Below are positions 12,201 through 38,855 of a stretch of 57,480 bases of DNA, one piece after another. How positions within the stretch are numbered: position 1 is the stretch's first letter; every line of letters starts with the position of its first letter. The position numbers and the translations under genes are program-made. The notes under the pieces are model-generated. The model searched no databases, was not told where the DNA came from, and saw nothing but the letters and a program-made list of their open reading frames with translations. This DNA is from a virus: the IMG/VR virus record IMGVR_UViG_3300008116_005699, positions 1 to 57,480 of that record; one strand, given 5' to 3'.

Positions 12201-15200
12201 TGATATGTTACTTTACACCCTGTATATACCCCCGTATACAGAAAATGTAAAAGATGTTCGTGTAGATTTCCAAAATAATCGTAGATTTACCATGAGGGAC
12301 ATTGGTGCGTTTGAAAATAGAATTAAAGGATTGGAATATTATGTCTCTTTAAATTCTTTAGAAAAAAATGCTAATGATTCTAAAATATTAGATGCTAATG
12401 GACTCGAAAGATCAAAATATGGAATTTTAGTTGACAATTTTACTTCAACTAGCGTTCAAGCTAATTATGGTGATGTAGGTTTTGATAATAGAAATAAAGT
12501 AGAAGATGGAGAATTAAAGCCAGCTTCTTTAATGAGTACGACTAAACTCCTATGGTCGGAAAGTACTTCTTCTGGTAGTTATAAGGTTGTGGGTACAAAT
12601 ACTCAAAAATCTTTGATTATGAATTATACTTCCACAAAATTTGCCGATCAACCATATGCAACTAAAACTATTCCTATTGCTAGTGCTCTTTATGGTAATT
12701 TTAATGGAACGTTAAAACTTTTCCCAGAGTTTACGAGTGACCATGATACTAGTGTTACAGCTAAAGTTACTTTAAACTCGGTTCAAGGATTAGAAGATGC
12801 CTTTAATTTCGTTGATGATAGATTAAATTACGTAGCTGAACAGAATCCAACTTGGCTAAGTGACAAAGATAGTCCTTTTGCAAAAGTTCCAGATTCTTCT
12901 TGGTTTGAAACAAAAACCACAGTTGAAAATAAGACAGTACAAATTAATAGAAATACAAATGGTAATTTACAAACCACTACTGATCAAGTTTATGTTAAAA
13001 CAGGAGCAACATTAAGTGCAGATCAGATTGGTGTGTCAACATCAAAACAGGATTTAGGATCTTATATTACAGACACAGCAATAAATCCTTTCTTAAAACC
13101 TAGAGGTATAGTTTTTATAGGATCTTCTTTAAGACCTAAAACGAGATTTTATTCGTATTTTGATGGCACATTAGTTGATAACTACACTATCGTTCCATCA
13201 AAAGTTACTTTAACTCAGAATACTCCATTTAAATCTGGAGAAATGGTTTTAATTGCCAATACAAATGCTGAATTATCAACTCATATAGATAATTATGCTT
13301 TAGATACTGGAATATACCATTTAGGTGTTTGTGCCGTTTCTGAAGTGGGATCAGCTAATGTTTCTATAGTAAATGAAAGTAGTTTGTCATTGAGTGGAAA
13401 ATATGTATATGGTCTAGATTCGAAAGAAACTAAAATTATTAGTTCAGTATTAGATCATCGTTGTGGAAATACAAAATCGGTAACATCCAGTACAATTACA
13501 TTAGCTGCAGATGCTCCAAGTGTAGACATTACTGGCAACACAGTAAGTTTGGTTAGAATTCAAACTACTGACGCTGATGTAAATCCTGCAACTGGAATTG
13601 GTTCCACTTACACAATTACTGCTTATAATACTACTACTAAAGTAGCTACAGTATCAGGAACAATACCTTCCTCCGAAGTAGGAAAAACATTTTCTTATAG
13701 TATAGGAACGAATGTTTCAAATAAAGCTGGCCAAATTGGTGGAATATTTTATCCACCACAAGCCACTTTCTTAAGTGGAGAAAGAGTTTATAGATTAACG
13801 GAGTCTTTCAATAACTCTTATGATAAAGATGCAATTTCTTTTGCCGATAAAAATTTTGTATCATCAGGTATAACAACAACAAAAACTTCTTTAGTTGATA
13901 CCGTATACAATATTGGAATAAGTAATCAAATTGTAGGAACTGTTACTTCACCATTGTTACAATCGACAACAGTTACAAGTACAATAACAAGCACTTGGAG
14001 AGTCGATCCATTAGCACAAACATTTTTTGTGGATGAACAAACTTACCCACATGGATTGTATTTGGAGAGTGTAAATTTATTCTTTAGTGCTAAGGATGAT
14101 GAAAACCTTCCAGTCAGAGTGCAAATTAGACCTACAGTAAATGGTACACCTTCTTTTGATTATTGGTATCCTGAATCTGTAGTTGAAAAATATCCTAGTG
14201 AAATAATTGTCTCAAACACACCTAGTATTAATGATAGTGCTACCAAAAATGTTTTTACTTTTAGTTCACCAGTATTTTTAAAACCAGGATTATATGCTGT
14301 TGTTATATTAACTGATTCTCCAGATTATGTTGTTTGGACAGCAGAAAAGGGACAAACAACATTAACTAATCAAACTGTTTCTGTTAACCCTTATGTTGGC
14401 ACTTTGTATAAATCACAAAATGCTATGGAATATGTTCCATATCTAAATGAAGATTTAATGTTTGAATTGAATCGTTGTGTTTTCAATACAAGTTCTGCAA
14501 CATTTTTATTACAGAGTGAGAAACAAGATTCAAAAATTTATATTGATAGATTTAGATTGTTGGAGAAGTCTATTACAACACAATCTAGTTCTCCAATATC
14601 AATTTCTTACTCAGTTATTACTAAACCAGTAAATTCATCGAAAGAAACAATTTATAGAAATATAACACCGTCTACAATTTATAGTATGGGAGATGACACC
14701 TTCTATTCTATAGGTAATAGAAGAAAAGAGTTACTAGATAAAAATGATTTTACAGTAAGATTAGAAATTTCAACTTCAAACGATGCTGTGACTCCTTTAG
14801 TTTCTTTAGAGAGTTTATATGTAAATACTTGGGAAAACTTTATTGATAATGGTGAAATTAATCCTGAAGATTTTAATATTATTGTAGCTGGTGCAAAGTA
14901 CTCAAATGCTAATGTGCTTACTGTTATTTCTTCCACAGGAGAAGGCGCAAATGTTGAAATAGTTGTAAATAATAGTACAGATGGAAATGTGGTTCGAATG
15001 AATGTCGCTTCATCTGGTATAGGATATGTTGATGACTTTTATATTTCATATCCACATACATCAAACAGTTCAACTGTAACAGCTAATGCCTCTATTGTAT
15101 TAAATAGTGAATTTGATAGTTCTGGTGGACCATGTTTGGCGAGATATATTACTAAACCTATTATTTTGACAGACGGATTTGATGCTGGTGATTTGAGGGT

Positions 15201-18700: not shown

Positions 18701-18996
18701 AAAAAGAAGTTACTGCAGCAAAAGACACCAAAAAACACGCTATCATCGGAATCGTATCGGAGAAACCAGCATACGTAATGAATAATGACTTGAAAAATGG
18801 TTTAATAGTTGGACTTAAAGGTCGATTACCTGTTAGAATAATTGGTACTTGTGAAAAGGGTGATTTAATTACTGTATCTGAAAAGTCTGGTGTAGGTATT
18901 TCTATAAAAGAAAATGTAATTTTACCATTTAGAATTATTGCTTTAGAAAATAAAGAAACTGAAGAAGAAGGTTTAATAGAAGTAGTTATTATGTAA
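15784..18996 (+). CDS. Tail fibre-like protein with YANSAF repeats
   Basis: The product has 1070 residues. Residues 1-350 are beta-rich with repeated Val/Asn/Thr steps, including three near-copies of a 'GNVVSLVSNNSTIN' motif. Two modules of the type 'GTWTALGDIEYEVGEIILNK ... RWNEADDRWT' and 'GENAAIQVYRG ... FQWNETLDKWQF' follow. Between them (bases about 17300-17830) lie alanine-rich 'YANSAFxxAN' heptad repeats like those in the downstream giant fibres. The C-terminus 'ALYADLAEKYLSDKKYPTGT' followed by a compact beta domain is a common C-terminal module of marine phage fibres, possibly the receptor-binding or trimerising end. It is the last structural gene before the accessory island. Confidence 0.8.
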   Translation: MPTSLIPIIARTNTIDEWRIQTNKSATDLNDLGFYTYDKAQGTLLLSGTSLLSITAEGTPLQVANNVLFQSSLTLGNTLFLGIQSSATGNIIAGGTISVRGPGQSLNVANSVYVGRDLQIVQNVYTSNVIVNTDITIANNLTVTTGKLRLNGSGNVSYINTGSSFTKTLYSDQVYSTNVSTANLYALYAKVDVLDDLSFARIITLDNTTTNSHILKTNAATSNFLTTKNLIANVTANIVNLESNVAVINVATIIDGNVVSLVSNNSTINISTVNTSTILTGNVVSLVSNNSILNNSTVNTSTVLVGNVVTLTSNSSTINVASINLASINTLTTWNITSTNRITGNSIVTNNIVSSTINTSILNVTSNLWMSTGSLTRIFAPNDQHESLTVDGKTTLRTALITSNLTVEGTWTALGDIEYEVGEIILNKRTPTNAEATFRNERPIGDDALIRWNEADDRWTISRGNTYSSLYGILDDSFLSSSINSTSTSNVATSLAVNTAHFVAQTSGMYANSAFAAQNTTGSYANSAYAQANLAFTAGGVIAGSYANSAYHTANSGSSYANSAFTHANSSFIQANTPSHVANSAALYANGAFLRANTPTHVANSASLYANAAFSKANTVATDLNDVAISTATAVHTSSSASLYANGAFAKANNSSDAVALDKATSGSAYANSAFAAANNAVQKVAPTQTITGDLTITRRLNTANLQFDGDSARYFGSNFVFNSDLNPNTSPGENAAIQVYRGTNASPATFQWNETLDKWQFEDGVNGLHNLEEFANKANNITGGATNKIPYQTNTSATQFIDAPAVANRFLKWTGTEFTWADVPAADLNNLNATNLTSGTVPSGRLTGTYSININGTASSACTATTASSATSATNATNVIDGGTVHTNTIRCDDFANFYSNVFFRSGGTTTSRTDPSNLAALKVTGDVAVSNEVWALQFQGVAVRALYADLAEKYLSDKKYPTGTIMMVGGKKEVTAAKDTKKHAIIGIVSEKPAYVMNNDLKNGLIVGLKGRLPVRIIGTCEKGDLITVSEKSGVGISIKENVILPFRIIALENKETEEEGLIEVVIM

Positions 18997-18999
18997 ATT

Positions 19000-19734
19000 A
19001 TGATTGGAATTATTGGTTATGGAATGGTTGGACAAGCCGTTGAATACGGCTTTTCCAAAACCCAAGTTTTCGTTTGTGATCCGAAATATAATCACGTAAC
19101 GGTCAAAGGCCTCTGTTTATTAAATCCAGAGGCAATATTCGTTTGTGTCCCCACACCAACAGACGATACTAATTATTCATTGGTTACTTCAGTATTGAAT
19201 GAAATTTTCGAGATGAACTATCAGGGAATAGTTATAGTAAAGTCCACAATTTTGCCGCAATATCTTGAAAAATATGATATTGTGTATAACCCAGAATTTC
19301 TATCAAGATCAACCTCGAAAGAAGATTTTGTAAATCCACACTTATTAATACTTTCTGGTAAAAAATCTCAACAGGCTTTGGAACTTTATAAAAAACATTC
19401 TACCGTAGATACTGAAAATATTTTTGTAACAGATATTAATACAGCATCATTTATAAAATACACCATGAATTCCTTTTATGCAACTAAGGTAACTTTTATG
19501 AACTCTATGTATGAGGTTGCTAAAAAAATGGGTGTCGATTATAATGAAGCTATAACTGTTCTCTCTAAACATCCATGGATGGGATCCAATCATTTCAAAG
19601 TACCTGGTCCTGATGGTAAAAAAGGATTTGGTGGGCCTTGTTTACCAAAAGACACAGAGTGTTTAGTTAAAAATTATGATGTTGAAATACTTAAAAAAGT
19701 TTTGGAATTAAATCAAAAGTTTAGAAATGAATAA
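19000..19734 (+). CDS. UDP-glucose/GDP-mannose dehydrogenase-type protein, short form
   Basis: The 244-residue protein has the NAD-binding motif G6-Y-G8-M-V-G11, then 'AIFVCVPTPTDD' and 'VKSTILP'. It also has 'NPEFL', typical of nucleotide-sugar dehydrogenases, and ends with the catalytic thiol motif 'GFGGPCLPKD' (C214). Full-length UDP-glucose 6-dehydrogenases have about 390-450 residues; here the C-terminal UDP-binding domain is missing. A four-electron oxidation of a sugar nucleotide is the family reaction, but whether this short form is active, or uses another substrate, is open. It follows the fibre gene by three bases and is separated from the rSAM cluster by the only long gap in the island. 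It could be co-transcribed with the fibre. Confidence 0.82.
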   Translation: MIGIIGYGMVGQAVEYGFSKTQVFVCDPKYNHVTVKGLCLLNPEAIFVCVPTPTDDTNYSLVTSVLNEIFEMNYQGIVIVKSTILPQYLEKYDIVYNPEFLSRSTSKEDFVNPHLLILSGKKSQQALELYKKHSTVDTENIFVTDINTASFIKYTMNSFYATKVTFMNSMYEVAKKMGVDYNEAITVLSKHPWMGSNHFKVPGPDGKKGFGGPCLPKDTECLVKNYDVEILKKVLELNQKFRNE

Positions 19735-19739
19735 GTTTG

Positions 19740-19768
19740 TTGAACAGTTTTGTCAAACACTATATATT
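19740..19768 (+). promoter_or_regulatory. Sigma70-like promoter before the rSAM cluster
   Basis: A -35-like TTGAAC at 19740-19745 and a -10-like TATATT at 19763-19768 are separated by 17 bases, the optimal spacing for a sigma70 promoter. They lie in the longest intergenic gap of the island (68 bases), just upstream of the first radical SAM gene. A TTTAAATA at 19782-19789 differs by one base from the T4 late consensus TATAAATA, so late control is an alternative. No transcription data are available. Confidence 0.5.
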
Positions 19769-19791
19769 AGTACGTCTTTGGTTTAAATAAA

Positions 19792-19797
19792 AAGGAG
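19792..19797 (+). promoter_or_regulatory. Strong ribosome-binding site AAGGAG
   Basis: A near-perfect Shine-Dalgarno AAGGAG lies five bases before the ATG at 19803. It is stronger than the sites of most genes in the island and suggests efficient translation of the first gene of the cluster. Confidence 0.75.
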
Positions 19798-19802
19798 AAA
19801 AA

Positions 19803-20909
19803 ATGGTAGTAGATATAAACGTAACAAGTATCTGCAATTTAGCTTGCACATATTGTTCCGAAGGTTTTGAATGTGGACTATCTACCGAGTTTGAAGAAAA
19901 TACTTCTTTGACATTAGATAATGTTGAAGAATTTATGGCTAAAATTTCTGATCCCAAAAAAGATGTTTATTTCTGGGGTGGTGAACCATTTGTTAATTGG
20001 GATTTTTGTAAAGGTGTCATAGAAAAATTTAAACATGATCCTGGTTTTTCTTTTTTCTTTTATACAAATGGAACGTATTTAAAGAGATATTTAAAAGATT
20101 TGGTTAGAATTCACAATGAGATTCCCGGTAGATTAAAGTTGCAGGTTTCATATGATGGAAAGCCTGTAAACGACATCGCCAGAGTGACTAAATCTGGTAC
20201 TCCATCGTCAGCAATGGTCAAAGCAAACTATATTGCAGCTAAAGAAGCTGGATTGAATGTTTCACTGAAATCTGTACTAACGTCTGAAAATTTCCACTTA
20301 ATCTATGAAGCCTTTTTGGATGTCATAGAAATGGATAAAAATTATTTTCCAACACCAGATTTATACAGCCAATTGACAGAAGAAGAATTTATGCCTAAAT
20401 TGGAAGTATTAAAGGATGGATTGAAGAAAATTGCTAAACATATTTACGAAAATAAATTACCTCCTGAGAAGTTTGGATGGTTCCAACAATCTAGAGCTCT
20501 ATGTGCAGCAGGTATAAATTACGTAAGTGTTGATTTAAACGGCGATTTGAGTCCTTGCCATGGATGCATGTACAAAGAATCGCATTCACATAAATTAGGA
20601 AATATTTTTAAAGTTGCAGATTTGGATCAGTTGATTGAAGAAAAATCTCAAATGTATAAGGATGCGTTGAAGAATCAACCTTTAGATTGTATGAACTGTG
20701 ACAGTCAATTCTGTATGAAATGTAATGCGGCAACTTATGAAAAATCAGAAAAAGAAACATATCTAGAAAAATGGAGTGATCATACAGCAAATTGGCAAGT
20801 CTGTAAAGTATTTAAGACAAACGAGATAGTACATCACGCATTAAGAACTGCACTAAAGAGTTATAAAAAGCCTGTAATTAAAATTCAGGCTGAACAGTGT
20901 ACAGTATAA
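19803..20909 (+). CDS. Radical SAM/SPASM-type enzyme 1
   Basis: The 368-residue protein carries the radical SAM cluster motif C11-x3-C15-x2-C18 ('CNLACTYC'). It also has the SAM-binding 'WGGEPFVNW' near residue 58 and a C-terminal Cys-rich region typical of SPASM domains. The latter includes C at about 233, 'LSPCHGC' at about 254 and 'LDCMNCDSQFCMKCNA' at about 293-308, with a last Cys at about 333. SPASM proteins hold one or two extra 4Fe-4S clusters and most known members modify peptides or proteins (thioether bonds, epimerisation, sulfatase maturation). It is the first gene after the promoter and strong RBS. Its substrate is not visible; the Cys-repeat protein encoded at 24503 is the obvious candidate. 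Family call is strong, reaction unknown. Confidence 0.92.
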   Translation: MVVDINVTSICNLACTYCSEGFECGLSTEFEENTSLTLDNVEEFMAKISDPKKDVYFWGGEPFVNWDFCKGVIEKFKHDPGFSFFFYTNGTYLKRYLKDLVRIHNEIPGRLKLQVSYDGKPVNDIARVTKSGTPSSAMVKANYIAAKEAGLNVSLKSVLTSENFHLIYEAFLDVIEMDKNYFPTPDLYSQLTEEEFMPKLEVLKDGLKKIAKHIYENKLPPEKFGWFQQSRALCAAGINYVSVDLNGDLSPCHGCMYKESHSHKLGNIFKVADLDQLIEEKSQMYKDALKNQPLDCMNCDSQFCMKCNAATYEKSEKETYLEKWSDHTANWQVCKVFKTNEIVHHALRTALKSYKKPVIKIQAEQCTV

Positions 20910-20918
20910 GGATAATAA

Positions 20919-22043
20919 ATGTTTACATTAGAAGTAAGTGTTACTGAAAAGTGTAATCTAGGTTGTCCGTATTGTTATGTGGCAAACAGACCAACTTGGA
21001 TGACGAAAGAAGTTTTTGATCAGGGTATGAAAGACCTGCCAAAATTAATGCAAAGGTCCGGTGATAAAGATTATCATGTAAGTTTTTTTGGTGGTGAACC
21101 TTTATTAAATTGGGACCTAATAACTCACGCTGTTCCTTATTTAAGATCGGATGATAAATGTAAAGGTATTAATATCATCACAAATTTAACGATGATTGAT
21201 CAAGATAAAGCTAATTATTTGAGAAATAATGGTGTTGGCGTTTCTTGGTCTTTTGATGGTATGAGTTCTAATGAGAGTAGACCTTTACTTCCACTTTTGG
21301 AAAATACTAATCCAGAAACAGGCGAATTGTTTGATGGTATACTTTCGATGTATGAATATAAGAAAGATATCATAAAGAATTTGACAAACGGATGTAAGGT
21401 CATGATATGGCCAGGAAATACAAAAGACATGAAAGAGAATTTTGAATTTCTCTTAGATTGGGGTATAGATCATCCCGATTTTAGTATTGTTCGTGATGAT
21501 GTTTGGACAGAAGATGATATAATACAGTTTAGATATGAATGTGAAAGACTTGCAGATTTTTGGATAGAAAAGATAAAATCTGGTAAACCATGTTCAGTAG
21601 GATTTTTAAAACTAGCTATTTTAGATATTCTCTATGGTTTAGTGAAAGGTAAAAGACCTTTTGGTTGTTTTGCTGGAACTAATGGTGGAGTATTGATGAG
21701 TTCTGGGGAATTCTACCCTTGCGCTAGGTTTGCATCCAAAAAAATTATGAAAATGGATGAACAGTATAATTTTAGGTACTATCAAGACATTTTTAATCCA
21801 AAAAATTATGATAAATGTGAACCGTGTGATTTGAAACAGGTGTGTAATGCCGGTTGTACATATTCTCAAATTATGAATGATAATAAACCATTAGATAGTA
21901 TTTGTGAATTGTTCCACATATATTATGAACAAGCAATGCGAGTGGTAGATGAGTGTAAAGACGAAAGAGTTTTCCAAGATTTGGTTTTAAATTATATCGA
22001 AAATGTTGGTGTTGAAAATGAAGGTGTGGAGTGTAGGAACTAA
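20919..22043 (+). CDS. Radical SAM/SPASM-type enzyme 2
   Basis: The protein has 374 residues, with cluster motif C12-x3-C16-x2-C19 ('CNLGCPYC') and 'SFFGGEPLLNWDL' at about residue 57. The C-terminal Cys set comprises 'FGCFAGTNGG' near 250, 'GEFYPCARFAS', then 'CEPCDLKQVCNAGC' near 301-314, and 'SICELFH'. This is a full SPASM-like arrangement with auxiliary clusters. It is the same general type as the preceding protein but clearly diverged. The RBS AAGGA overlaps the end of the upstream gene, so the two are co-transcribed. Known relatives act on ribosomally made peptides or on sulfatases; no sulfatase is seen nearby. Confidence 0.92.
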   Translation: MFTLEVSVTEKCNLGCPYCYVANRPTWMTKEVFDQGMKDLPKLMQRSGDKDYHVSFFGGEPLLNWDLITHAVPYLRSDDKCKGINIITNLTMIDQDKANYLRNNGVGVSWSFDGMSSNESRPLLPLLENTNPETGELFDGILSMYEYKKDIIKNLTNGCKVMIWPGNTKDMKENFEFLLDWGIDHPDFSIVRDDVWTEDDIIQFRYECERLADFWIEKIKSGKPCSVGFLKLAILDILYGLVKGKRPFGCFAGTNGGVLMSSGEFYPCARFASKKIMKMDEQYNFRYYQDIFNPKNYDKCEPCDLKQVCNAGCTYSQIMNDNKPLDSICELFHIYYEQAMRVVDECKDERVFQDLVLNYIENVGVENEGVECRN

Positions 22044-22044
22044 C

Positions 22045-22893
22045 ATGAAAATTGTTTCTTGCACCAGTCAAGATAAAATTCTTAGAATTAACTGGCATAT
22101 ATTAAATTGGTGTAATTTAAAATGTTCCTACTGTAATGTAAAGGAACATTTGAGTTATGATTATAATGATAATACTCAAATTTCAAATAATTATAAATTG
22201 ATTATAAGTAGATTAAAAACTATTTCTAAACCTTTTGAGATTTGTTTGACTGGTGGGGAACCAACATTACATCCCAATATCGAAGATATATTAAGTGGAT
22301 TAAATGAAATTGAAAATTTAACTAAAATTTATTTTTTTACTAACTTAACTAGATCAGAAAATTTTTATAAAAATATAAAAAGTTTTTCGAAAGTTACATA
22401 TTACGCATCCTTTCACCCCGAATATCACAAAGAAGATTTTTTAGATAAGTGTAAAAATCTAAACTGTGAGGTTCATATAAGTATGATGCCTGAATATAAA
22501 AATTACATTTTAAAAATTATTGATAAGTGTAAGTTGGAGGATATAAAATTTACATTAAATTTTTTAAGAGACACAAAATATTATTCAAGTAATTTAGAAG
22601 AAGATTTTTTCGTAGAAGCTTCTACTGCTGAATCTATGATTGATATGGATGTTTTATATGATAATGGCTTTCGAGAAAATACTACAAATTTAAGATTATT
22701 ATACGATAAAAAAAATAATTTCAAAGGCTATAAATGTTTACCGGAATCTTTTCAAATAGAATTAAATAATGTAGTTAAAAATGTTTGCACTAACGAAATT
22801 ATGCCATTATCTTTAAAAGATATTACGAAAAAGGTTATTTGTCCAAAAGAAGTTTGTGAAGGTGGACTTATGATGTATCCTAAGGAAATTTAA
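22045..22893 (+). CDS. Radical SAM protein 3
   Basis: The start at 22045, one base after the preceding stop, is preferred over an upstream alternative that would overlap the previous gene; this gives 282 residues. Cluster motif: C23-x3-C27-x2-C30 ('CNLKCSYC'). 'LTGGEPTLHPN' follows. The C-terminus has 'GYKCLPESFQIELNNVV', then a Cys, then 'CPKEVCEGG'. The pattern G-(W/Y)-x-C...G/N-x-V-x3-C...C-x3-C is shared with the proteins encoded at 29484 and 31951, so these form a subfamily with a probable auxiliary cluster. The stop overlaps the next ATG by one base (translational coupling). Confidence 0.87.
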   Translation: MKIVSCTSQDKILRINWHILNWCNLKCSYCNVKEHLSYDYNDNTQISNNYKLIISRLKTISKPFEICLTGGEPTLHPNIEDILSGLNEIENLTKIYFFTNLTRSENFYKNIKSFSKVTYYASFHPEYHKEDFLDKCKNLNCEVHISMMPEYKNYILKIIDKCKLEDIKFTLNFLRDTKYYSSNLEEDFFVEASTAESMIDMDVLYDNGFRENTTNLRLLYDKKNNFKGYKCLPESFQIELNNVVKNVCTNEIMPLSLKDITKKVICPKEVCEGGLMMYPKEI

Positions 22894-23222
22894 TGAAGAA
22901 AAATTTTAAAAGTATTGTATCTATACCTATTAAAGTTGAGATGCAACCAGTTGAACATCAAAGCAATAAAGTTTTGACTGTTGATGATTTGTCGAAACAA
23001 ATAGAAGAAGCTAAAAAGGGAAAAGCCAAAGTCGATAGTAAGTATGTAGGATTTGAACTGACTGAGAGAGGACATTTATTCGAATATAAATTTGATTATG
23101 TTAAATTTTTGGACAATATGTCATTCATAATCAAAACGGCAAAACAGCGTAAAGAAATGAATCCTAATAATGTCTATACAATGGATAAAACTAAAAGTGC
23201 TAGACGAAAAAAAGAAATATGA
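22893..23222 (+). CDS. Small basic protein coupled to two rSAM genes
   Basis: The product has 109 residues, is rich in Lys and has no Cys, signal peptide or membrane segment. I recognise no family. Its start overlaps the preceding rSAM stop by one base (TAATG) and its stop overlaps the next rSAM start by four (ATGA), so it is translated together with both. The C-terminus is strongly basic ('KTKSARRKKEI'). A role as partner, scaffold or peptide-recognition protein of the rSAM enzymes is possible but only inferred from position. It is too large and without core motifs to be called a peptide precursor. Confidence 0.7.
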   Translation: MKKNFKSIVSIPIKVEMQPVEHQSNKVLTVDDLSKQIEEAKKGKAKVDSKYVGFELTERGHLFEYKFDYVKFLDNMSFIIKTAKQRKEMNPNNVYTMDKTKSARRKKEI

Positions 23223-24112
23223 ACGCCGAAACTTTCAAAAAAAAGTATCCTCAAATAAATTTTTATGTAGGACATGAAACGGATAAAACTGTAACTAAAG
23301 ATTCGGGAGTAAATGTATTATATTTCACAAATAAATGTAATTTAGCTTGTACATATTGTTATGAAGATTTGCCTGGTCGCCCTCCACAAATTTTGTCTAA
23401 AGAAGATATTAAAAAAAGTATCGATAGAGTTATAGAAAGAGAAGATCCCAATAGTCAAACATTATTTGTTCTTTTTGGTGGAGAAGCTACTATGGAATGG
23501 GATAATGTTTGTTATGCCATGAATTATGCCTATACAAAAAAGAAAAATGTTCATTTTAATTTAAACACAAATGGCATAAGATACCTAAAACAAAGTTTTA
23601 TAGAGGAAACAAAAAACAATTTTTTTTATAAAAAAAACTTGTTAAGTATAGACGTTAGTTTTGACGGTATAGGAAATTCGGATAGAGTCACACACGGCGG
23701 CAAGGATTCAACTAATTTAATGATCCAAGTTTTCAGAAATTTGAGAAAAAACGCAATGAAATTTAGGATAAGATACACCATACATCACAAAAACGTTCAT
23801 AATTGCTATGAAGATATGTCCAATATTATTAGATATTTTAAACCAACCCGTCTTATAACATCCGTTGCGTGGGAAACTCTCAATAAAATTCAAATTGACT
23901 TGCTCCAAAACATGAAAGAAAGTCTCAGGAAAGATTGGATAAATAGGATAATTGATGTTCCAGTTTGTGAGTTATTTTGTGACATGTGTGATGGATGTGG
24001 TGAGAGAAAGGAAGTAAAAACTTATTTTACTGACGAGGGTAATGTAACCACATATGGTAATTATGAGAACTCCCCGAAATTTCATGATTTTAAAGAAAAG
24101 GTAATAATATGA
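23219..24112 (+). CDS. Radical SAM protein 4
   Basis: The product has 297 residues. A 39-residue extension precedes the cluster motif C40-x3-C44-x2-C47 ('CNLACTYC'), followed by 'VLFGGEATMEWDN', in which the usual GGEP is GGEA. The C-terminal part holds 'CELFCDMCDGCGERKE' (C-x3-C-x2-C-x2-C from about residue 248). This is a compact four-Cys site that could bind an auxiliary 4Fe-4S cluster, and it is followed by a beta-hairpin-like 'YFTDEGNVTTYGNY'. The gene is coupled to both neighbours by ATGA overlaps and is the last rSAM gene before the Cys-repeat protein. Family certain, reaction unknown. Confidence 0.88.
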   Translation: MNAETFKKKYPQINFYVGHETDKTVTKDSGVNVLYFTNKCNLACTYCYEDLPGRPPQILSKEDIKKSIDRVIEREDPNSQTLFVLFGGEATMEWDNVCYAMNYAYTKKKNVHFNLNTNGIRYLKQSFIEETKNNFFYKKNLLSIDVSFDGIGNSDRVTHGGKDSTNLMIQVFRNLRKNAMKFRIRYTIHHKNVHNCYEDMSNIIRYFKPTRLITSVAWETLNKIQIDLLQNMKESLRKDWINRIIDVPVCELFCDMCDGCGERKEVKTYFTDEGNVTTYGNYENSPKFHDFKEKVII

Positions 24113-24501
24113 GCACTGATAGAGAAATTGTAATTGAAAAGTTAACGAGTATTTCACAAAATATTAAAGAGATATCGGAATATGATGAAGGCCTCGCCAA
24201 CTTAATTTGGATAGGTTTTGACACAGCTATGAGTTTAGCACAATCTATTTCTGAAAATAATGAGAAAAAGGAACAAATTGATATTTCTGTTTACATTCAA
24301 CAAATTTGTGATGCTTTGGGTGTTGATATTGAACAAATGGTTTTATCAATTATTCAAAATAACAATACTCAAGAATCTAGTAATAAAGAGCCGGACTTGG
24401 AAACTTTAGACTTTATAACATCCGATCTTGATGACTATGAAAAGTTTTTAGCAAAAAGTTCAGCAAAAAATAATTTAGATTTTTTATCAAAGGAAATATA
24501 A
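24109..24501 (+). CDS. Small acidic helical protein next to the Cys-repeat gene
   Basis: The product has 130 residues, is acidic and predicted helical by eye, without Cys clusters or membrane segments. It resembles no family I know. The start overlaps the upstream rSAM stop (ATGA), and one base separates its stop from the ATG of the Cys-repeat protein. It therefore lies exactly between the modifying enzymes and their presumed substrate. A chaperone or adaptor that delivers the substrate would fit this place; this is inference from gene order only. Confidence 0.7.
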   Translation: MSTDREIVIEKLTSISQNIKEISEYDEGLANLIWIGFDTAMSLAQSISENNEKKEQIDISVYIQQICDALGVDIEQMVLSIIQNNNTQESSNKEPDLETLDFITSDLDDYEKFLAKSSAKNNLDFLSKEI

Positions 24502-24502
24502 G

Positions 24503-25111
24503 ATGGCTTTAGGTAAAATGTTTGACACTACTCTTGGAGTAGGTACTAACACAACTCCTGCTGGTGAACATAAAAGGCTATCAATAACTATACAAGGAAC
24601 TGTTGGTAGTAATGCAGTGAATTATGATCTTGCGAATGTTGTAGCTGGAGAGGATTTAATAACTAGATCGTTTTTTCAATCGCTGCTTGATAAAGCAAAA
24701 GAAGAAAATACGAGAAGGGGAGGCAGCGCCACTAAAGGTTCGTTATCAACAACAAACATTAGAGCTGCCGACTTTAATAATATCCGAGCACTTTTTGCTG
24801 TTGCCGATTCTAGGACAAATCAAGTTTATAATGATTGGTCTGGTGCAAATGCTAATTTGCCTAATGGTCCGACAGTAAATAGTCCCACAATAACAACCTT
24901 TCCTACTACTGCTGCACCAACTGGTGTTCCAGCAGCAGTTACCACAGATCCAGCAACTCAAATTAGAGCTACAATTCTGAATTCTCTCATTAATGCTTTG
25001 AATTCTGCTGGGCAAGTTTGCACCTGTAATTGTAATTATTGTACTTGTAATTGCAATTATTGTACATGTAACTGTAATTACGCATGTACCTGCAACTGTA
25101 ATTACTCCTAA
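24503..25111 (+). CDS. Protein ending in (CTCNCNY)4, candidate rSAM substrate
   Basis: The 202-residue protein has two parts. Residues 1-172 look like a soluble phage structural or adhesin-type protein: beta-like start 'KRLSITIQGTVGSNAVNYDL', helical 'FFQSLLDKAKEENTRRGG', a Thr/Pro/Ala-rich linker (about 120-155) and a helix 'IRATILNSLINALNSAG'. Residues 173-201 are four copies of the heptapeptide CTCNCNY (173-179, 180-186, 187-193, one Ala, 195-201), with a terminal Ser. All 12 Cys of the protein lie there; the first 172 residues have none. A clear RBS (AAGGA) precedes the ATG. Directly downstream of four rSAM genes, it looks like a leader/core-type substrate or a virion protein whose tip is modified or binds metal. 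No signal peptide is seen. The link to the enzymes is inference. Confidence 0.85.
   Translation: MALGKMFDTTLGVGTNTTPAGEHKRLSITIQGTVGSNAVNYDLANVVAGEDLITRSFFQSLLDKAKEENTRRGGSATKGSLSTTNIRAADFNNIRALFAVADSRTNQVYNDWSGANANLPNGPTVNSPTITTFPTTAAPTGVPAAVTTDPATQIRATILNSLINALNSAGQVCTCNCNYCTCNCNYCTCNCNYACTCNCNYS
25019..25105 (+). repeat. Four 21-base repeats coding CTCNCNY
   Basis: Copies lie at 25019-25039, 25040-25060, 25061-25081 and, after one Ala codon, 25085-25105. The amino-acid units are identical, whereas synonymous changes occur between copies (TGT/TGC, AAT/AAC, ACC/ACT/ACA, TAT/TAC). This means the peptide repeat is kept by selection on the protein rather than being a very recent DNA duplication. 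Confidence 0.95.
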
Positions 25112-25122
25112 TTAAAAATATT

Positions 25123-25584
25123 ATGTTTTTTCAACTAAATCATTTAGAAGAAACCAATATGTCTTACATAAGACATTTTAATCATGGAATAAGATTGGGA
25201 TCTTGGTTATTTTTGTGTTCCATCATTTTTTTAATTTATTGTCTTTTCTCTTTAAAATTTTTAGAAAACTTTGTGATAGCACGAATAAACACAATGTATC
25301 ATGGATTAATGTTGCGATGGTTTGAAGATGAAACATTTAATCGTGGAAAACCAGAAAAAGATGTTTTAGAAGAAAAGAAATATAAAAAGCAGTATGTAAA
25401 ATTGATCGAAGATGGAATGATAAATCCTTTCAATAAAGTTAAAATATTTAATGGACTGTTAATTGCATCCATTACTAGTATAACACATTCTTTTATACCA
25501 CAAATATTTGTGCATCATGCTGCCACCAATGTAATAAGATTATATTTTAATTATAAAATAATGGAGAAATTAAATGAAAAATGA
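25123..25584 (+). CDS. Small membrane protein with two hydrophobic segments
   Basis: The product has 153 residues. The N-terminus 'LNHLEETNMSYIRHF' is followed by a first membrane segment at about residues 25-44. A charged loop with a 'KKYKKQYVKLIEDG' helix comes next, and a second hydrophobic segment at about 107-130. The N-terminal pattern H-L-x-E-x-N-x-S-Y-x-x-H then a hydrophobic helix is reminiscent of DUF6356-like small phage membrane proteins, but this is a weak match. It would act in the host inner membrane. The gene follows the Cys-repeat gene by 11 bases and overlaps the next by 11; a role in export, anchoring or membrane glycan modification is possible but not shown. Confidence 0.65.
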   Translation: MFFQLNHLEETNMSYIRHFNHGIRLGSWLFLCSIIFLIYCLFSLKFLENFVIARINTMYHGLMLRWFEDETFNRGKPEKDVLEEKKYKKQYVKLIEDGMINPFNKVKIFNGLLIASITSITHSFIPQIFVHHAATNVIRLYFNYKIMEKLNEK

Positions 25585-25978
25585 TAGAGTTGAAATTGAA
25601 GGTATTGATGCGAATACTTATGCTGGAAAAGCAATTAATGCATGTAAGTTAAAAGCAAGAGGAATTTTTGGAGATGAACTTTTAACTTTTAAACTTTTGG
25701 ATTTTGTAAGTTTTTTAATGTTAAATAATGAATTTACGTCAAAAGGTTATTTTATTAGTGAACATAATAGGGAAGAAATTTATATAAAAATTATAGAAAC
25801 TGGTGATATACAATTAATAAATGATTTGGAAAAATATATTAATCTTAGAGATTCTATAAAAGAATTACAAAGAAAAAAAGATGAATTTTACGATATTATT
25901 GAAAAATTAAATAATTTATCAAACTTGAATGATGAAACGAGTGTTAATGAAATTGTAGAGTCTTATCTAAGGAGATAA
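25574..25978 (+). CDS. Hypothetical helical protein
   Basis: The product has 134 residues. The first half is mixed alpha/beta ('AINACKLKARGIFGDELLTF'). The second half has heptad-like Leu/Ile spacing with many Lys/Glu ('LRDSIKELQRKKDEFYDIIE'), which suggests a coiled coil. No known domain is seen. It overlaps the end of the membrane-protein gene by 11 bases. Its last codons contain the strong RBS of the next gene, so all three are expressed together. Confidence 0.62.
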   Translation: MKNDRVEIEGIDANTYAGKAINACKLKARGIFGDELLTFKLLDFVSFLMLNNEFTSKGYFISEHNREEIYIKIIETGDIQLINDLEKYINLRDSIKELQRKKDEFYDIIEKLNNLSNLNDETSVNEIVESYLRR

Positions 25979-26977: not shown

Positions 26978-27856
26978 GTGTCTTTAGTAAATCTGAGAAA
27001 CTATGATTTAGTTATAACTACTTCATTTGGTTTCAAATTTGGAATTTGTGGTCATTTATTTGAAATGATTGAATATTATTGGGCTATAAAAAATTGGACA
27101 AATCTAAATCCTTGTATACTATTGTCCGATGGTACTACAATAGACGAATTTAATATAGCTTTAAACACGAAATATGATAATCTAGTTGTTGAAAATTTAA
27201 TATACCATCCTTTTCCAAAACTATTATTGTCAAAAAATTTATTGATAGTTGACGGATCTTCAAGACTTGATAATTCGGAAATATATACAGATAATTTTTT
27301 TCTATTCAGATGTCATGAAAAAAATTATGACTTTTATATAAACAATAAAGCGCAATGTCACTTATTTCAAGATTTTGAAATATATGATGATATTCCTAAA
27401 AAAATAAATGTTTTTGATTATAAGAAAAAATTATTATATTCAAAATTTAAAAAAATAAATGATGATGTAGAAAATTCTGTAATGTTTTATTTGACAGATG
27501 TTAGTAGATTTATGTCTGAAGAAACAATAACTGAAATTTCCAATAAATATTCTTTCAACAACACAGTAGTATTTACAAATAAACCAGAACTTTATACAAA
27601 AATAAAAACATATAAAGTTCCAGTCCCAGACATGTGGAATAAATTTTCTACATATGTTTATACTAAATTACCTGGCAAAAAAGATTGTTCCAATAGATTT
27701 ATTTTAGAGTGTATGCACTATGATAAAGAAGTTGTTTATGATATAGATTATTATGATAAAGCTTTAGAAATTAGAAAAAAGGATGGAATAAAAAATACAT
27801 CTTTAGAACAAGGTGATTTTTTTATCAATTATATCAATGAACAAATTAAGTGTTAA
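26978..27856 (+). CDS. Glycosyltransferase-like protein (GT-B type, putative)
   Basis: The product has 292 residues and starts with GTG four bases after the previous stop; the first strand 'YDLVITTSFGFKFGICGHLF' follows directly, so a later start is unlikely. The C-terminal part 'FSTYVYTKLPGKKDCSNRFI' followed by 'LECMHYDKEVVYD' resembles the end of marine-phage GT-B-like proteins, where a late 'E-C-x-x-x-x-K-x-V-x-Y' binds the donor. No DxD motif is seen, as expected for GT-B. The call rests on pattern only. The 3' end overlaps the next rSAM gene by 20 bases. Confidence 0.42.
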   Translation: MSLVNLRNYDLVITTSFGFKFGICGHLFEMIEYYWAIKNWTNLNPCILLSDGTTIDEFNIALNTKYDNLVVENLIYHPFPKLLLSKNLLIVDGSSRLDNSEIYTDNFFLFRCHEKNYDFYINNKAQCHLFQDFEIYDDIPKKINVFDYKKKLLYSKFKKINDDVENSVMFYLTDVSRFMSEETITEISNKYSFNNTVVFTNKPELYTKIKTYKVPVPDMWNKFSTYVYTKLPGKKDCSNRFILECMHYDKEVVYDIDYYDKALEIRKKDGIKNTSLEQGDFFINYINEQIKC

Positions 27857-28829
27857 AAAAATACTGATAGATTATGATAGACCTATTAACAATAGAGCTA
27901 AATTAGATACTGGTAAACTCTGTAATTATAAATGTGAATTTTGTTACTATAAAAATAGTTTGTCTGAGAGAGATGAACTTGATAAAATCTACAAAAGAAT
28001 AGATTATTTACTTGACTATGGCATAAAAGAAATCGATCTTAGTGGTGGTGAAAGTAGTGTAGAACCGAATTGGTTTAATATATTAAATTATTGCCAAAAT
28101 AAATTTGATAGAATTAGTTGCCTTAGTCACGGAGGTAAATTTAGTGATAAAGAATTTATTCAAAAAAGTTTCGACTTAGGTTTAAGAGAGATACTCTTTA
28201 GTCTACATTGTACGGATGAAAGTGTTCATGATAAAATTGTAGGCAAAAAAGGAGCTTTTAAAAATTTAATTAAAGCTATTGAGAACTCCCACCGTTTAAA
28301 TATTGAAGTTAGATTGAACACAACTGTATATCATGAAAACTACAATAAAATAGACACTTCTTTTATAAAATCTTTAAACCCCACCCAAGTTAATTTTATT
28401 GCTCTCAATTATTGGAGAGACAATAAAGATTTTTATCCTATTGATTACGGAACAATTTGTTCCTATGTTTCAAATTATATTGATGACCTTAAGGACTCAA
28501 CCGAAGTTAATGCTAGATATTTTCCTTATTGTTTTATGCCATCAAAAGAAAAATATATAAAAAACCATTATCATCATATATATGACTTTAAAGATTGGAA
28601 TAAAGCGGTTTATAGTGGAACATTAGACACTAAAAAAAATTATACGCACAATGAAAAAGTAGAACATTCTTTCTCTGAAGCGGAACGAATGAGAATTTAT
28701 AGTTACTTTAAAACCGAAGAATGTACAAAGTGTAAATATTTTTATATATGTGATGGTATAGAAAATGAACTTAAAGATAAAGTTAGTCCAAATCCTGTTT
28801 TTGGAGAAAAGATAAGATTAATATGGTAA
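27837..28829 (+). CDS. Radical SAM protein 5 (MoaA-like core)
   Basis: The ATG at 27837 is preferred over a start 24 bases earlier; this gives 330 residues. Cluster motif C29-x3-C33-x2-C36 ('CNYKCEFC') is followed by 'EIDLSGGESSVEPNW', where the usual GGEP is GGES. A typical barrel strand 'EILFSLHCTDESVHDKIVG' follows. The C-terminus has 'EECTKCKYFYICDGIENEL', a partial SPASM-like Cys group that may bind one auxiliary cluster. It overlaps the glycosyltransferase-like gene upstream and the GT2 gene downstream (7 bases). Its substrate is unknown. Confidence 0.88.
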   Translation: MNKLSVKKILIDYDRPINNRAKLDTGKLCNYKCEFCYYKNSLSERDELDKIYKRIDYLLDYGIKEIDLSGGESSVEPNWFNILNYCQNKFDRISCLSHGGKFSDKEFIQKSFDLGLREILFSLHCTDESVHDKIVGKKGAFKNLIKAIENSHRLNIEVRLNTTVYHENYNKIDTSFIKSLNPTQVNFIALNYWRDNKDFYPIDYGTICSYVSNYIDDLKDSTEVNARYFPYCFMPSKEKYIKNHYHHIYDFKDWNKAVYSGTLDTKKNYTHNEKVEHSFSEAERMRIYSYFKTEECTKCKYFYICDGIENELKDKVSPNPVFGEKIRLIW

Positions 28830-29509
28830 ACATTGATTTATCTATTTTAATACTTACGCATAATAGGCCTAAACTTTTTGAAAGAAGTTTAAATTCAATT
28901 TTATCATATTTAACTCCAAAAATAGAAGTAATTGTAAATAATGATAGTTCTGATATAAAAGAAATTGAAAATACTAATGTAAATTATTATTATGAAAAAT
29001 TTAATAATATATCAAGTGTATATGAATTTTTATTTCTTAAGTCTAAAGGAAAATATATTTATTTTTTGGAAGATGATGACTATTTGAGGAAGCAATTTTT
29101 CGAACAAAGTTTTGATGCTGATATTATAGCTGGAAATTATTGTCCTACCTATAAGCCAGATAATACTTTTGAAATAATAAATTTGTTTAAAGATGAAGTT
29201 ATACACGATAAATGTGAATTTTTAAATAAATTAAACTTAGAACATTTACAATTAGGACAATTTATATTTAAAAGAAGTGTAATTGAAGATTTTTATTTTG
29301 GAATAGATAACAATATTCATAATGATATTAGACTGGTCTATCACGCTTCACAAAAGTCGAAGAAATTTAGAATGACCAATAAAGTATTTTACTACCAAAC
29401 AAAAGATGGTAATGATAATATTTCTTTTCCTGGAACAAAAAAAAGTATAAACGTAACGGCATCTTTGGACTTTTTAAAAAATTATGAAATACAAAATACA
29501 ACATCATAA
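28823..29509 (+). CDS. Glycosyltransferase family 2 protein
   Basis: The product has 228 residues. The N-terminus 'LSILILTHNRPKLFERSLNS' is the classical GT2 nucleotide-binding start. 'IEVIVNNDSSD' follows, and 'YIYFLEDDDYLRK' (E83-D84-D85-D86) gives the DxD metal/UDP-binding motif. The protein is shorter than most GT2 enzymes, with only a small C-terminal part and no membrane anchor. It probably transfers a sugar from a nucleotide sugar to a glycan or peptide acceptor in the cytoplasm. It lies between two rSAM genes and overlaps both. Confidence 0.85.
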   Translation: MVNIDLSILILTHNRPKLFERSLNSILSYLTPKIEVIVNNDSSDIKEIENTNVNYYYEKFNNISSVYEFLFLKSKGKYIYFLEDDDYLRKQFFEQSFDADIIAGNYCPTYKPDNTFEIINLFKDEVIHDKCEFLNKLNLEHLQLGQFIFKRSVIEDFYFGIDNNIHNDIRLVYHASQKSKKFRMTNKVFYYQTKDGNDNISFPGTKKSINVTASLDFLKNYEIQNTTS

Positions 29510-30386
29510 AGATCAAGATCCGGATCATATTAATATTCATTGGGATAGTCTTACTATTTGTCAACTCAAGTGTTCTTATTGTTACGCTAGAAATGAGTAT
29601 GGTAAAGAATGGGGTAAACTATCTAGTAAAAAAACAATTGATGCTGTATTGGATGCTTTAAATCGAAGTAGTTTGAATTTTAATTTGGGTTTGTTGGGTG
29701 GCGAACCAACTTTAGGTCCTTATTATTACCATATTTTAGACTCAATCAGTAAAATGGAGAAATTTAATTGGGTTTATGTTGTAACAAATGCTGAAAAGGA
29801 TTTGACACTTCACCCACATTATGATAAACTGGCTTTCCTATTCAGTTACCACCCGGCCGATTGTACGGATGAAAATAGATTTCTCAATAATATACATCAT
29901 ATGCTGGGTAGAGGTTATAAATGTAAAGTGAATGTTATGCTTCACCATGATAAAAGTTTATGGCCAAAAATAAAAAATATGTTTGAAACTTTGGAAAAAA
30001 TACCCAATTTAAAAATACATCCACACTTTTTATATGGTAATAGTATCACTAAATTGTTTAACTATAGAAAAGATTTTTGGGAATATTTTTCTTTTTTAGA
30101 GTCGTATGAAAAAGAATTAAAATATGATGATGATTTTTTTAATGATTATATTATATTTAGGGATAAATTAACCAATTTTAAAGGATGGAATTGTTACAAC
30201 AATAATTATGAAATTGACGTTAGAGGTAACGTTGTTAAATTTTGTATGCCAAAAACTGATAATATTAATCTCATAAGCAATAGAGATTTTTTTAAAAATA
30301 TAACCAAAACTGTTCCTATGGTTTGTCCACATAAAGCTTGCAATTGTGATGGTCTTTTAAAACAATTAAAAATTAAAAATGAGTAA
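29484..30386 (+). CDS. Radical SAM protein 6
   Basis: The product has 300 residues, with cluster motif C26-x3-C30-x2-C33 ('CQLKCSYC') and 'LGLLGGEPTLGPYYYH'. The C-terminal region has 'GWNCYNNNYEIDVRGNVVKF', a Cys, and then 'CPHKACNCDGLL'. The same frame of Cys and Gly residues appears in the proteins encoded at 22045 and 31951, so this is a subfamily member with a likely auxiliary 4Fe-4S site. It overlaps the GT2 gene by 26 bases and the next rSAM gene by 8 bases. The barrel is rich in His and Tyr ('HPHFLYGN'). Confidence 0.88.
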   Translation: MKYKIQHHKDQDPDHINIHWDSLTICQLKCSYCYARNEYGKEWGKLSSKKTIDAVLDALNRSSLNFNLGLLGGEPTLGPYYYHILDSISKMEKFNWVYVVTNAEKDLTLHPHYDKLAFLFSYHPADCTDENRFLNNIHHMLGRGYKCKVNVMLHHDKSLWPKIKNMFETLEKIPNLKIHPHFLYGNSITKLFNYRKDFWEYFSFLESYEKELKYDDDFFNDYIIFRDKLTNFKGWNCYNNNYEIDVRGNVVKFCMPKTDNINLISNRDFFKNITKTVPMVCPHKACNCDGLLKQLKIKNE

Positions 30387-33024: not shown

Positions 33025-33036
33025 GGATTGATAATT

Positions 33037-38274: not shown

Positions 38275-38855
38275 CTGGACACACGGGATTTATTGGTAGA
38301 AATTTGGTCGAAGAATTTAAACGCCAAGGCTATAATCCAATTTTAATAGACAAAAATTTTACACCAGTTAAGTGTGATAGGATATATCATTTGGCTTGTC
38401 CTGCAACTACATATCACATTACAAATAATACTATTAGTGTTATGGATGCTATATTAGATTTAACTCGCAAAGCAATGAATATATGTAGTGATGCTTTATT
38501 TGTAAATGCTAGTTCTTTTGGCGCTGCTGATATTAATGAAAGTAAGCAAGGTGGATATAATGTTGCTAAAAGATGTATGGAAATATATTTGTCGCATTCT
38601 AAAATTAATTATATAAATTATAGAATACCTTCCGTTTATGGTCAAGACGCCAGTACCGATTCCTTTATTAAAAGGTGTGTTTTAGGTACTGCTTACAAAC
38701 CCACAAACTCCTCACAGATTTGGCCGATATCTCATGTTGATGATGTCGTTGAAGCTTTAATTAATCTTTCAGAAATTAAAATTGAATATATTACTTTGGG
38801 TGAAATATACGAACAATTTACTTCGGGAAAAAGAAATTTGATAAAACATGAATAA
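38259..38855 (+). CDS. Short NAD-dependent epimerase/dehydratase-like protein
   Basis: The ATG at 38259 is chosen over an upstream in-frame TTG because the Rossmann strand begins at once ('MEIAVTGHTGFIGRNL', G7-x2-G10-x2-G13); 198 residues. 'YHLACPATTYH' and 'FVNASSFGA' follow, and 'GGYNVAKRCMEIYL' has Y-x3-K. 'NYRIPSVYGQDAS' is typical of sugar-nucleotide epimerases. It is about 100 residues shorter than common family members, so the C-terminal substrate domain is reduced. It is flanked by transketolase and halogenase genes with overlaps on both sides. Confidence 0.8.
   Translation: MEIAVTGHTGFIGRNLVEEFKRQGYNPILIDKNFTPVKCDRIYHLACPATTYHITNNTISVMDAILDLTRKAMNICSDALFVNASSFGAADINESKQGGYNVAKRCMEIYLSHSKINYINYRIPSVYGQDASTDSFIKRCVLGTAYKPTNSSQIWPISHVDDVVEALINLSEIKIEYITLGEIYEQFTSGKRNLIKHE

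Follow-up and report, generated by a model that had tools for sequence, protein, structure and literature searches.

Ranthipeptides (CteA/CteB thermocellin, PapA/PapB freyrasin) are described systems in which a radical S-adenosylmethionine (rSAM) enzyme of the SPASM type acts on a Cys-rich C-terminal region, and Cys-to-Asp, Cys-to-Thr, and Cys-to-Asn thioethers are known there (PMC8326336, PMC8172795). QhpD, of the quinohemoprotein amine dehydrogenase system, is a SPASM enzyme that forms Cys-Asp/Glu thioethers in a protein rather than in a small peptide (PMC8326336, PMC8172795). In phages, the Peptidase_S74 domain trimerises tailspikes and then cleaves itself off (PMC3828593, PMC3742443), and rSAM cassettes of pelagimyophages were mentioned without a function by Zaragoza-Solas et al. 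2020 (PMC7029224). Here, we describe a gene cassette from the IMG/VR virus record IMGVR_UViG_3300008116_005699, analysed over its whole length of 57,480 bases and referred to as the window. The cassette combines rSAM genes with a 202-residue protein ending in four CTCNCNY repeats. Two of its enzymes, rSAM1 and rSAM2, with their accessories, probably constitute a phage fibre-tip maturation cassette, which enzymatically modifies the tip of a trimeric fibre.

The likeness to ranthipeptides lies in the rSAM/SPASM enzymes and the Cys-rich C-terminus. Unlike in ranthipeptides, the enzymes score far under the family cut-offs, two to three different enzymes occur per proposed substrate, rSAM1 and rSAM2 show no N-terminal recognition element (RRE) of ribosomally synthesised and post-translationally modified peptides (RiPPs), and the substrate would be a fibre-like protein of the phage in which a chaperone frequently follows the repeats. 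The QhpD system differs in that a bacterial enzyme subunit and no virion is concerned; rSAM2 scored 77.8 bits with TIGR03906 against a cut-off of 453. Peptidase_S74 (endosialidase-type) fibres and tailspikes have the domain and its S-D-x-R-L-K start in common with many relatives of the window protein, whereas a Cys-rich tip or an rSAM partner is not mentioned in the accessible text on these fibres (PMC3742443, PMC3828593), and in the present family the chaperone is frequently encoded by two genes or, as in the window, absent. The window is similar to the pelagimyophage cassettes in that a phrog_358 gene, fibres, and rSAM genes lie together in an island of this type. In the accessible parts of, for example, Campylobacter phage papers, the rSAM genes of large phages were remarked on as unusual and assigned no specific target; some of these genes would be accounted for if a protein substrate were defined. 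Among the matches listed in searches of the open-licence literature, no paper linked rSAM enzymes with phage fibres, Cys-rich repeats, S74, or the modification of virions or peptides in phages.

Gene content and repeat motif of the cassette

The cassette comprises the following features, all on the plus strand of the window:

19803..20909, +, rSAM1: radical SAM with SPASM, 368 amino acids (aa), core enzyme; PF04055 8.8e-16
20919..22043, +, rSAM2: radical SAM with a complete SPASM cysteine set, 374 aa, core enzyme; PF04055 3.7e-12
22045..22893, +, rSAM3: radical SAM without a SPASM match; PF04055 3.9e-11 (scanned from 22063)
22893..23222, +, s109: small protein before rSAM4, fold unassigned; 24 distinct cassette sequences including that of the window
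23219..24112, +, rSAM4: radical SAM, accessory enzyme, a single C-terminal CxxxCxxCxxC set; PF04055 3.1e-12
24109..24501, +, s130: small helical protein; 19 distinct sequences
24503..25111, +, CNCNY protein: predicted fibre tip and proposed substrate, 202 aa; 32 related loci
25019..25105, +, four CTCNCNY units with an Ala between the third and fourth; the modified tip in the proposed model
25574..25978, +, d134: companion of the tip in most cassettes, possible fibre chaperone; 53 distinct sequences

The genes from rSAM1 to the tail protein are tightly packed, with small gaps or overlaps. The four rSAM genes, two small genes, and the 202-residue protein were found as the initial annotation had described them, and PF04055 was above cut-off in 4/4 rSAM genes. 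Its claim that 19803-25111 forms one unit holds for the packing; the conserved unit runs beyond 25111 to the gene at 25574-25978 and excludes rSAM3. The start of rSAM3, as far as the sequence allows a choice, is most likely at 22045, directly past the rSAM2 stop, rather than at 22003. Of the promoter and ribosome-binding site predicted ahead of the cassette, the latter is clear (AAGGAG ahead of 19803); promoter-like matches were at chance level (42 vs 37.3 +/- 5.7 in shuffles of 18900-25700), as was the terminator scan of the cassette region.

Twelve Cys are present in the tail protein, and 12/12 lie inside the four repeats, which agrees with the earlier description. The four 21-nt repeat copies vary in 6/21 columns, all of them third positions. 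The silence of 22/22 pairwise differences marks the repeats as selected protein sequence; a fresh DNA repeat was rejected for this reason. Between the window and locus L009 (L numbers designate the collected loci and contigs), the tail protein is 55% identical overall and rSAM1 98% identical. The nonsynonymous rate (dN) was lower than the synonymous rate (dS) wherever dS was computable in this comparison, several dS values being saturated. Purifying selection is shown by these computations. The tail matched PHROG 26958 (1.8e-10), and the Pfam scan of the 24503 protein gave 0 families.

A search for repeat units imposed Cys at positions 1, 3, and 5 and Tyr, His, Phe, or Asn at position 7; informative are therefore positions 2, 4, and 6 and the share of Tyr. 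Among 293 units in 40 non-redundant proteins, position 6 was Asn in 271/293, position 4 was Asn, Asp, or Gln in 285, position 2 was Thr in 232, and position 7 was Tyr, within the four residues allowed, in 273/293. Complete proteins of this proposed substrate family had 125-534 aa. Tandem paralogues with CNCNY tips were observed, four in L010 (8045-10609) and three in L014 (9501-11558). Their N-terminal parts differ and the tips are nearly the same, possibly a form of diversification.

Co-occurrence of rSAM1 and rSAM2 with cysteine-rich tips

In protein-based searches of the collections, the best 80 places were kept, and the counts below refer to these best-scoring loci. The tail-protein search yielded 32 loci, including seven in which the protein is identical to that of the window. 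Within the stretches retrieved, 31/32 contained an rSAM1 or rSAM2 relative; the exception, L027, begins at the contig end with the tail gene. The rSAM2 alignment search (best 80 places of 234 relatives) gave 76 distinct loci, which formed 49 clusters at 90% identity. A Cys-rich tail protein accompanied rSAM2 in 44/49 clusters, 43 within the locus and one elsewhere in the genome. The clusters without a tip either end at a contig edge (L133, L178, L181) or have none in the available sequence (L155, L143), and the tip was present in 44/46 clusters not cut by a contig end.

The scripted Cys-rich criterion required 8 Cys in 40 residues in the first script and 7 in the later ones (companion rates, anchored controls), and 42/49 rSAM2 cluster representatives passed the latter. 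The scripted match in L168 is an unrelated protein; this cluster was counted because its genome, CP21, has a true tip elsewhere, and the tips of L172 and L174 were added on reading, giving 44 of 49. The cluster of L130 is represented by L131 because L130 has no repeat block. In the rSAM1 search, 80 loci were kept in 57 clusters, 33 of which scored at least 190 bits. A fibre-like Cys-rich protein was present in 31/33 (27 by script and 4 on reading), and none was seen in L155 and L211. The other 24 clusters are too distant to judge, some having other Cys-rich proteins. By-eye additions throughout were L172, L174, L222, L219, L231, L226, L380, and L409; the scripted match of L226 was a spurious frame.

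Companions in the 49 rSAM2 clusters were rSAM1 (45), d134 (34), rSAM4 (32), s109 (21), S74 (16), and s130 (15). A close relative of rSAM3 occurs in the cassette only in near-identical window copies and in L032/L033. The four rSAM genes had earlier been taken to act as a set; rSAM1 and rSAM2 are indeed near-universal in the cassette and rSAM4 is common (32/49), whereas rSAM3 is a local passenger outside the conserved part.

Loci anchored on other genes strengthen the enzyme-tip link. rSAM5 (27813-28829 in the window) lies in the same islands and was chosen regardless of Cys; its 60 viral loci formed 43 clusters. By script, rSAM1/rSAM2 and a tip occurred together in 22 of these, enzymes only in 2, a tip only in 0, and neither in 19 (Fisher 2.6e-10). 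On reading, the two exceptions, L380 and L409 (the latter on the same contig as L226), have a Cys-rich tip just below the criterion and before a d134 gene, which makes 24/24. Anchoring on phrog_358 (79 loci; best 80 of 149) gave 10 loci with enzymes and tip, 0 with enzymes alone, 1 with a tip alone, and 68 with neither. The 10 represent three distinct lineages (seven window copies, two of another, and one third), the sole "tip alone" locus (L309) is an antisense reading frame, and the downstream sequence of most of the 68 does not extend far enough for a cassette to be visible, 18 having at least 8 kb. A set of 34 stretches without a C.CNCN frame contained a Cys-rich open reading frame (ORF) in 2/34 by the first criterion and 0/34 by the final one; it was CNCNY-free by selection and was therefore replaced as a control. 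CPT_0017, another phage rSAM protein, found only three Campylobacter genomes as a control query. The co-occurrence of rSAM genes and Cys tails proposed in the initial annotation is thus borne out (44/46 uncut rSAM2 clusters; 22/24 vs 0/19 in rSAM5 islands by script), and enzymes and tail are strongly linked.

Divergent rSAM2 loci (25-30% identity) mostly carry other Cys-rich tips instead of CNCNY. The typical tip reads C-x-C-N-x-D-C-x-C-N-x-x-C-x-C-H-N-D-C-x-C-N-Y-S-D-x-R-L-K (L180, L182, L183, L186, L187, and close variants); other motifs were CPCNCNF (L145, L148) and HSNC/HSDC repeats (L174). The link persists down to this identity and across these motifs, in many phages that are only distantly related to one another. 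With tblastn, the whole tail protein gave one chance match in the phages collection. The spaced repeat pattern had 0 matches in genome contigs and the tandem pattern 1, a 3-kb contig of a metagenome-assembled genome.

All four components, rSAM1, rSAM2, a CTC[ND]CNY protein, and d134, were found in Campylobacter group II phages (15 records, corresponding to 11 phages by name; IBB_35 was deposited in pieces, so its genes are in two accessions). In the phages collection, matches covering at least 80% of the query to rSAM1, the Campylobacter CNCNY protein, and the CP220 d134 homologue came from 15 records each, all Campylobacter group II; rSAM2 matched these 15 and 8 faecal fragments at 24-27% identity. 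The d134 family, searched with two queries, matched only the same 15 records. The window CNCNY-coding DNA matched them at E <= 4e-13, and the other 32 matching records began from E = 0.3. CP220 and CPt10 have the same four components as the window (CPT_0180, CPT_0184, CPT_0023, CPT_0015) but differ in that the genes are scattered and the repeats internal. In CP220, CPT_0180 (repeats) and CPT_0184 (rSAM1 type) lie at 161-166 kb, and CPT_0023 (rSAM2 type) and CPT_0015 (d134 type) at 12-17 kb. A 21-bp repeat in CPT_0180 had been described by Timms et al. 2010, who called the 11-12 rSAM genes "highly unusual" (PMC2853527). They suggested a metabolic benefit for a variable five-rSAM module, and the accessible text draws no link to the repeat protein (PMC2853527). 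The IBB_35 virion comprises 38 proteins, 25 of them without homologues (PMC3322345). Campylobacter group II phages thus offer a cultured model for the rSAM/tip system.

These data bear on the explanation that the CxC repeats are a metal-, Fe-S-, or disulphide-stabilised fibre tip formed without enzymatic C-H chemistry, with rSAM genes that belong to the host-recognition island as well but work on something else (e.g., surface sugars). Iron is held by His-x-His motifs in T4-type fibre tips, and the C-x-C spacing would suit a metal in a trimeric needle. Many other rSAM genes lie near sugar-modifying genes in these phages, the host-recognition clusters of pelagimyophages also mix rSAM cassettes, fibres, and glycosyltransferases (PMC7029224), and one Cys-repeat contig (L045) has no rSAM gene. 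However, rSAM1/rSAM2 specifically track the tip, which was found in 0/19 clusters of rSAM5 islands without them, and the link holds at 25-30% identity, with several tip motifs, and in CP220, where the genes are unlinked. We consider an unmodified metal or disulphide tip unlikely.

Peptidase_S74 and the proposed maturation of the tip

Peptidase_S74 (PF13884) was above cut-off in 8/10 scanned relatives of the tail protein, mostly picked for a long C-terminus. Its start is the Ser-Asp that follows the last unit, either directly or after one further residue. It also occurs with divergent tips (L231, L182). Among 81 Cys-rich proteins, some of them unrelated, 17 distinct tips had the full domain and 24 a short S-D-x-x-L/V-K stub. 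Endosialidase NF is cut just N-terminal of Ser911, with Lys916 as the partner, in an SDxRLK-type motif (PMC3828593). In the S-D-x-R-L-K of the CNCNY proteins, Ser and Lys are the same distance apart, so the mature product would end at ...CTCNCNY or one residue after. Relatives without the domain end exactly at this predicted cut in L009, L034, and L113, and the window protein ends one Ser later. In L130, the tip gene (12665-13097) was seen to have no repeat block and to stop ahead of the S74 part; the sister contigs L131/L132 have the block, and either an assembly collapse or a real deletion could account for this.

Behind stub tips (SDxRLKxxIxYM or similar, 12 residues), the remainder of the domain is often encoded by a small ORF. 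PF13884 was above cut-off in 9/10 separate ORFs tested, covering profile positions from about 16-20 to 53-57:

L011 10582-10863, split S74 ORF (barely above cut-off)
L021 10554-10829, split S74 ORF
L082 1117-1413, split S74 ORF
L086 9637-9948, split S74 ORF
L146 13167-13466, split S74 ORF
L152 9700-9954, split S74 ORF
L172 12838-13110, split S74 ORF
L223 9693-9953, split S74 ORF
L271 2751-3050, split S74 ORF

The separate ORF of L010 was below the cut-off (15.9 bits), and no S74 ORF adjoined the tip in the stub loci L029, L099, L142, L144, and L210. The split domain is possibly a trans-acting chaperone.

The products proposed in the initial annotation were a phage-encoded peptide, an adhesin tip, and a redox/metal patch on the virion. 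The fibre chaperone directly after the repeats in many relatives favours the adhesin tip or a role on the virion. In a RiPP-like precursor, the tail would undergo modification and then be severed and set free as a small peptide for signalling or antimicrobial action; all Cys are indeed C-terminal, and the enzymes resemble ranthipeptide maturases. Yet many relatives run from the repeats straight into the chaperone, for which reason the phage RiPP was set aside. Ahead of the repeats lie about 40 to 400 aa, whose free divergence does not suit a leader. No peptidase, exporter, or RRE was found among ten proteins scanned (the genes at 25574, 25981, and 26978 with PHROGs only). Judged by its relatives, the tail protein looks like a fibre rather than a RiPP precursor, and the leader/core peptide, unsupported by these scans, appears highly improbable.

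The SPASM motif is C-x(9-15)-G-x4-C ... C-x2-C-x5-C-x3-C ... C. By its Cys pattern, rSAM2 fits it exactly (C250-x12-G263-x4-C268, C300-x2-C303-x5-C309-x3-C313, C329), with 7/7 Cys invariant in 16 aligned sequences and no Pfam SPASM match; a RumMC version of the motif has been described (PMC8172795). rSAM1 gave 21.6 bits with PF13186 (SPASM; cut-off 21.5), and its C234, C252, C296, C299, C304, C307, and C334, in a variant x4/x2 spacing, are invariant in 14 aligned sequences. The annotation of SPASM-type Cys in two of the rSAM genes is therefore correct. rSAM4 has only one 4-Cys set, C250, C254, C257, and C260, invariant in 12 aligned sequences. The Cys of the CxxxCxxC motif are invariant in the alignments of rSAM1, rSAM2, and rSAM4. 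According to the alignments, rSAM1 and rSAM2 begin straight at the radical SAM domain and show no N-terminal RRE. In a tree, rSAM1, rSAM2, and rSAM4 formed three main groups, each similarly split by cassette type, with CP220 members in two groups; because best matches supplied the group names, part of this coherence follows from the naming itself, and several of the long branches are uncertain.

The nearest solved structure to rSAM2 in the profile search was 5wgg (3.7e-35), which we take to be CteB; formylglycine formation of the anaerobic sulfatase type was set aside, the anSME structures scoring weaker than 5wgg. The SCIFF model (TIGR03974) gave 87.4 bits for rSAM2 against a cut-off of 425. 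Viperin-type defence was rejected, the four enzymes scoring 35.6-51.3 bits against the NF038283 cut-off of 180, with partial PADLOC matches only. The nearest enzymes, CteB and PapB, make thioethers of the Cys-Thr and Cys-Asp kind, a Cys-Asn thioether is present in NxxcA, and QhpD makes thioethers in a large protein (PMC8326336, PMC8172795), which favours thioether chemistry. Taken by itself, thioether cross-linking of Cys to neighbouring Asn/Asp or Thr has, in our view, slightly less than an even chance. The enzymes might act on the tip without a cross-link, oxidising, epimerising, or altering Asn, Tyr, or Cys to give a redox-active or receptor-binding patch. The preference for Asn at position 6, left free by the search, and for Tyr at position 7 among the four residues allowed would suit such chemistry, as would N/D/Q at position 4 and Thr at position 2 (counts above). 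However, both the nearest solved structure and the nearest curated families are thioether formers, and we regard modification without a cross-link as distinctly improbable.

The accessory proteins gave few clues to their role. No family match above cut-off was found for s109 in the Pfam and NCBIfam scans, and none in the PHROG scan. The predicted model of s130 is all-helical, with a mean predicted local distance difference test (pLDDT) score of 75. A full-length (longer) d134 relative in L183 gave a confident model (mean pLDDT 90), for which a fold search returned no clear solved relative; its weak viral matches included DUF4376 proteins and one named tail assembly chaperone.

We infer the substrate relation, chemistry, timing, virion location, and function of the fibre-tip maturation cassette as follows. 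The 24503 protein would be a subunit of a fibre or spike and end in a cysteine repeat of the CxC type. Before the subunit folds, and in the reducing environment of the host cytoplasm, its repeats would be modified by rSAM1 and rSAM2 (SPASM), assisted by rSAM4 as an accessory enzyme, and s109, s130, and d134 may serve as adaptors or chaperones. Three subunits would assemble next, in relatives driven by the S74 domain after the repeats, either fused or supplied from a second gene. A fused domain would then remove itself by a cut just ahead of its first Ser, so that the mature tip ends at ...CTCNCNY or one residue further on. The window protein has presumably lost the chaperone, its gene ending one residue beyond the cut point. 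The fibre would thereby end in a small and rigid cysteine needle, proof against oxidation, for receptor contact or surface piercing.

More broadly, and only tentatively, we propose that several phage lineages make covalently cross-linked cysteine needles on their own fibre tips with a dedicated rSAM pair, a process in which radical chemistry is coupled both to self-cleavage and to trimerisation by an S74 chaperone that is split in some cases, and that Campylobacter group II phages are a ready laboratory model. Phages may thereby chemically toughen or reshape the tip that touches bacteria. If so, cultured phages would allow tests of radical modification on a virus's own receptor-contact protein, and SPASM enzymes that act on repeats would become available as tools, as would an S74 chaperone that is split in nature.

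Several observations weigh against the enzymatic maturation of a fibre tip. The N-terminal part of the 24503 protein had no clear fibre-family match in Pfam, NCBIfam, and PHROG scans. The window protein has no S74 domain by Pfam scan, and a local S74 model matched no window ORF; among the ten relatives scanned, the domain was not matched in L012 or in CPT_0180 of CP220. The repeats of CPT_0180 are internal, with about 200 (202) residues and more Cys beyond them, and this protein is not named among the 11 CP220 virion bands in the accessible text (PMC2853527). The best NCBIfam model for rSAM1, rSAM2, and rSAM4 was PapB (NF047865), at 78.5, 132.2, and 79.9 bits against a cut-off of 340, and neither an RRE nor a leader was found in the window cassette proteins scanned. 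L045, a 43.8-kb contig found by DNA pattern, has 17 units and no rSAM gene in the available sequence. Enzyme loci without a tip exist and are rare (L155, L143, L211). rSAM genes are abundant in these phages in any case, with 7-16 per record in 18/18 records.

Genomic surroundings and other cysteine-rich proteins

On the 5' side of the cassette, PHROG matches identified T4-type baseplate genes (phrog_430, 261, 219, 17744, and 438). The 2079-aa phrog_358 gene, presumably VrlC-like, and a 1070-aa fibre with a terminal self-cleaving Peptidase_G2 domain also lie to the left. To the right follow an island with further rSAM genes, sugar enzymes, and two tryptophan-halogenase homologues, and then very long repetitive fibres. 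In this respect, the window is similar to the "host recognition cluster" described for pelagimyophages (PMC7029224).

Downstream of the cassette are four additional rSAM genes together with a 2-oxoglutarate (2OG)-Fe(II) oxygenase (27813-28829, 29484-30386, 30379-31137, 31951-33024, and 33028-33639). The first of these, rSAM5, recurs next to many cassettes and also in islands without a cassette. The halogenase homologues (36483-37826 and 38848-40113; PF04820 6.1e-65 and 1.3e-61) lie inside the phage host-recognition island.

Near more distant viral rSAM genes, we observed proteins with an (N/D/A)C-type run such as ...NCNCNCACDCAC at or beside the C-terminus (L236 6636-7613, L262 7755-8870, L247 14648-15877, L234 2688-4436, L266 6374-6934, and L270 4543-4944). 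They are possibly a second, independent pairing of rSAM enzymes with Cys tails. Two other proteins encoded close to viral rSAM genes contain 33 Cys in 185 aa, with CSCNATCYGY-type repeats (L239 9384-9941), and 23 Cys in 132 aa (L233 496-894). At the right end of the window, a fibre gene of at least 2910 codons (48751-57480) with YANSAF/ANTADSKAVTAG-type repeats is open at the record end.

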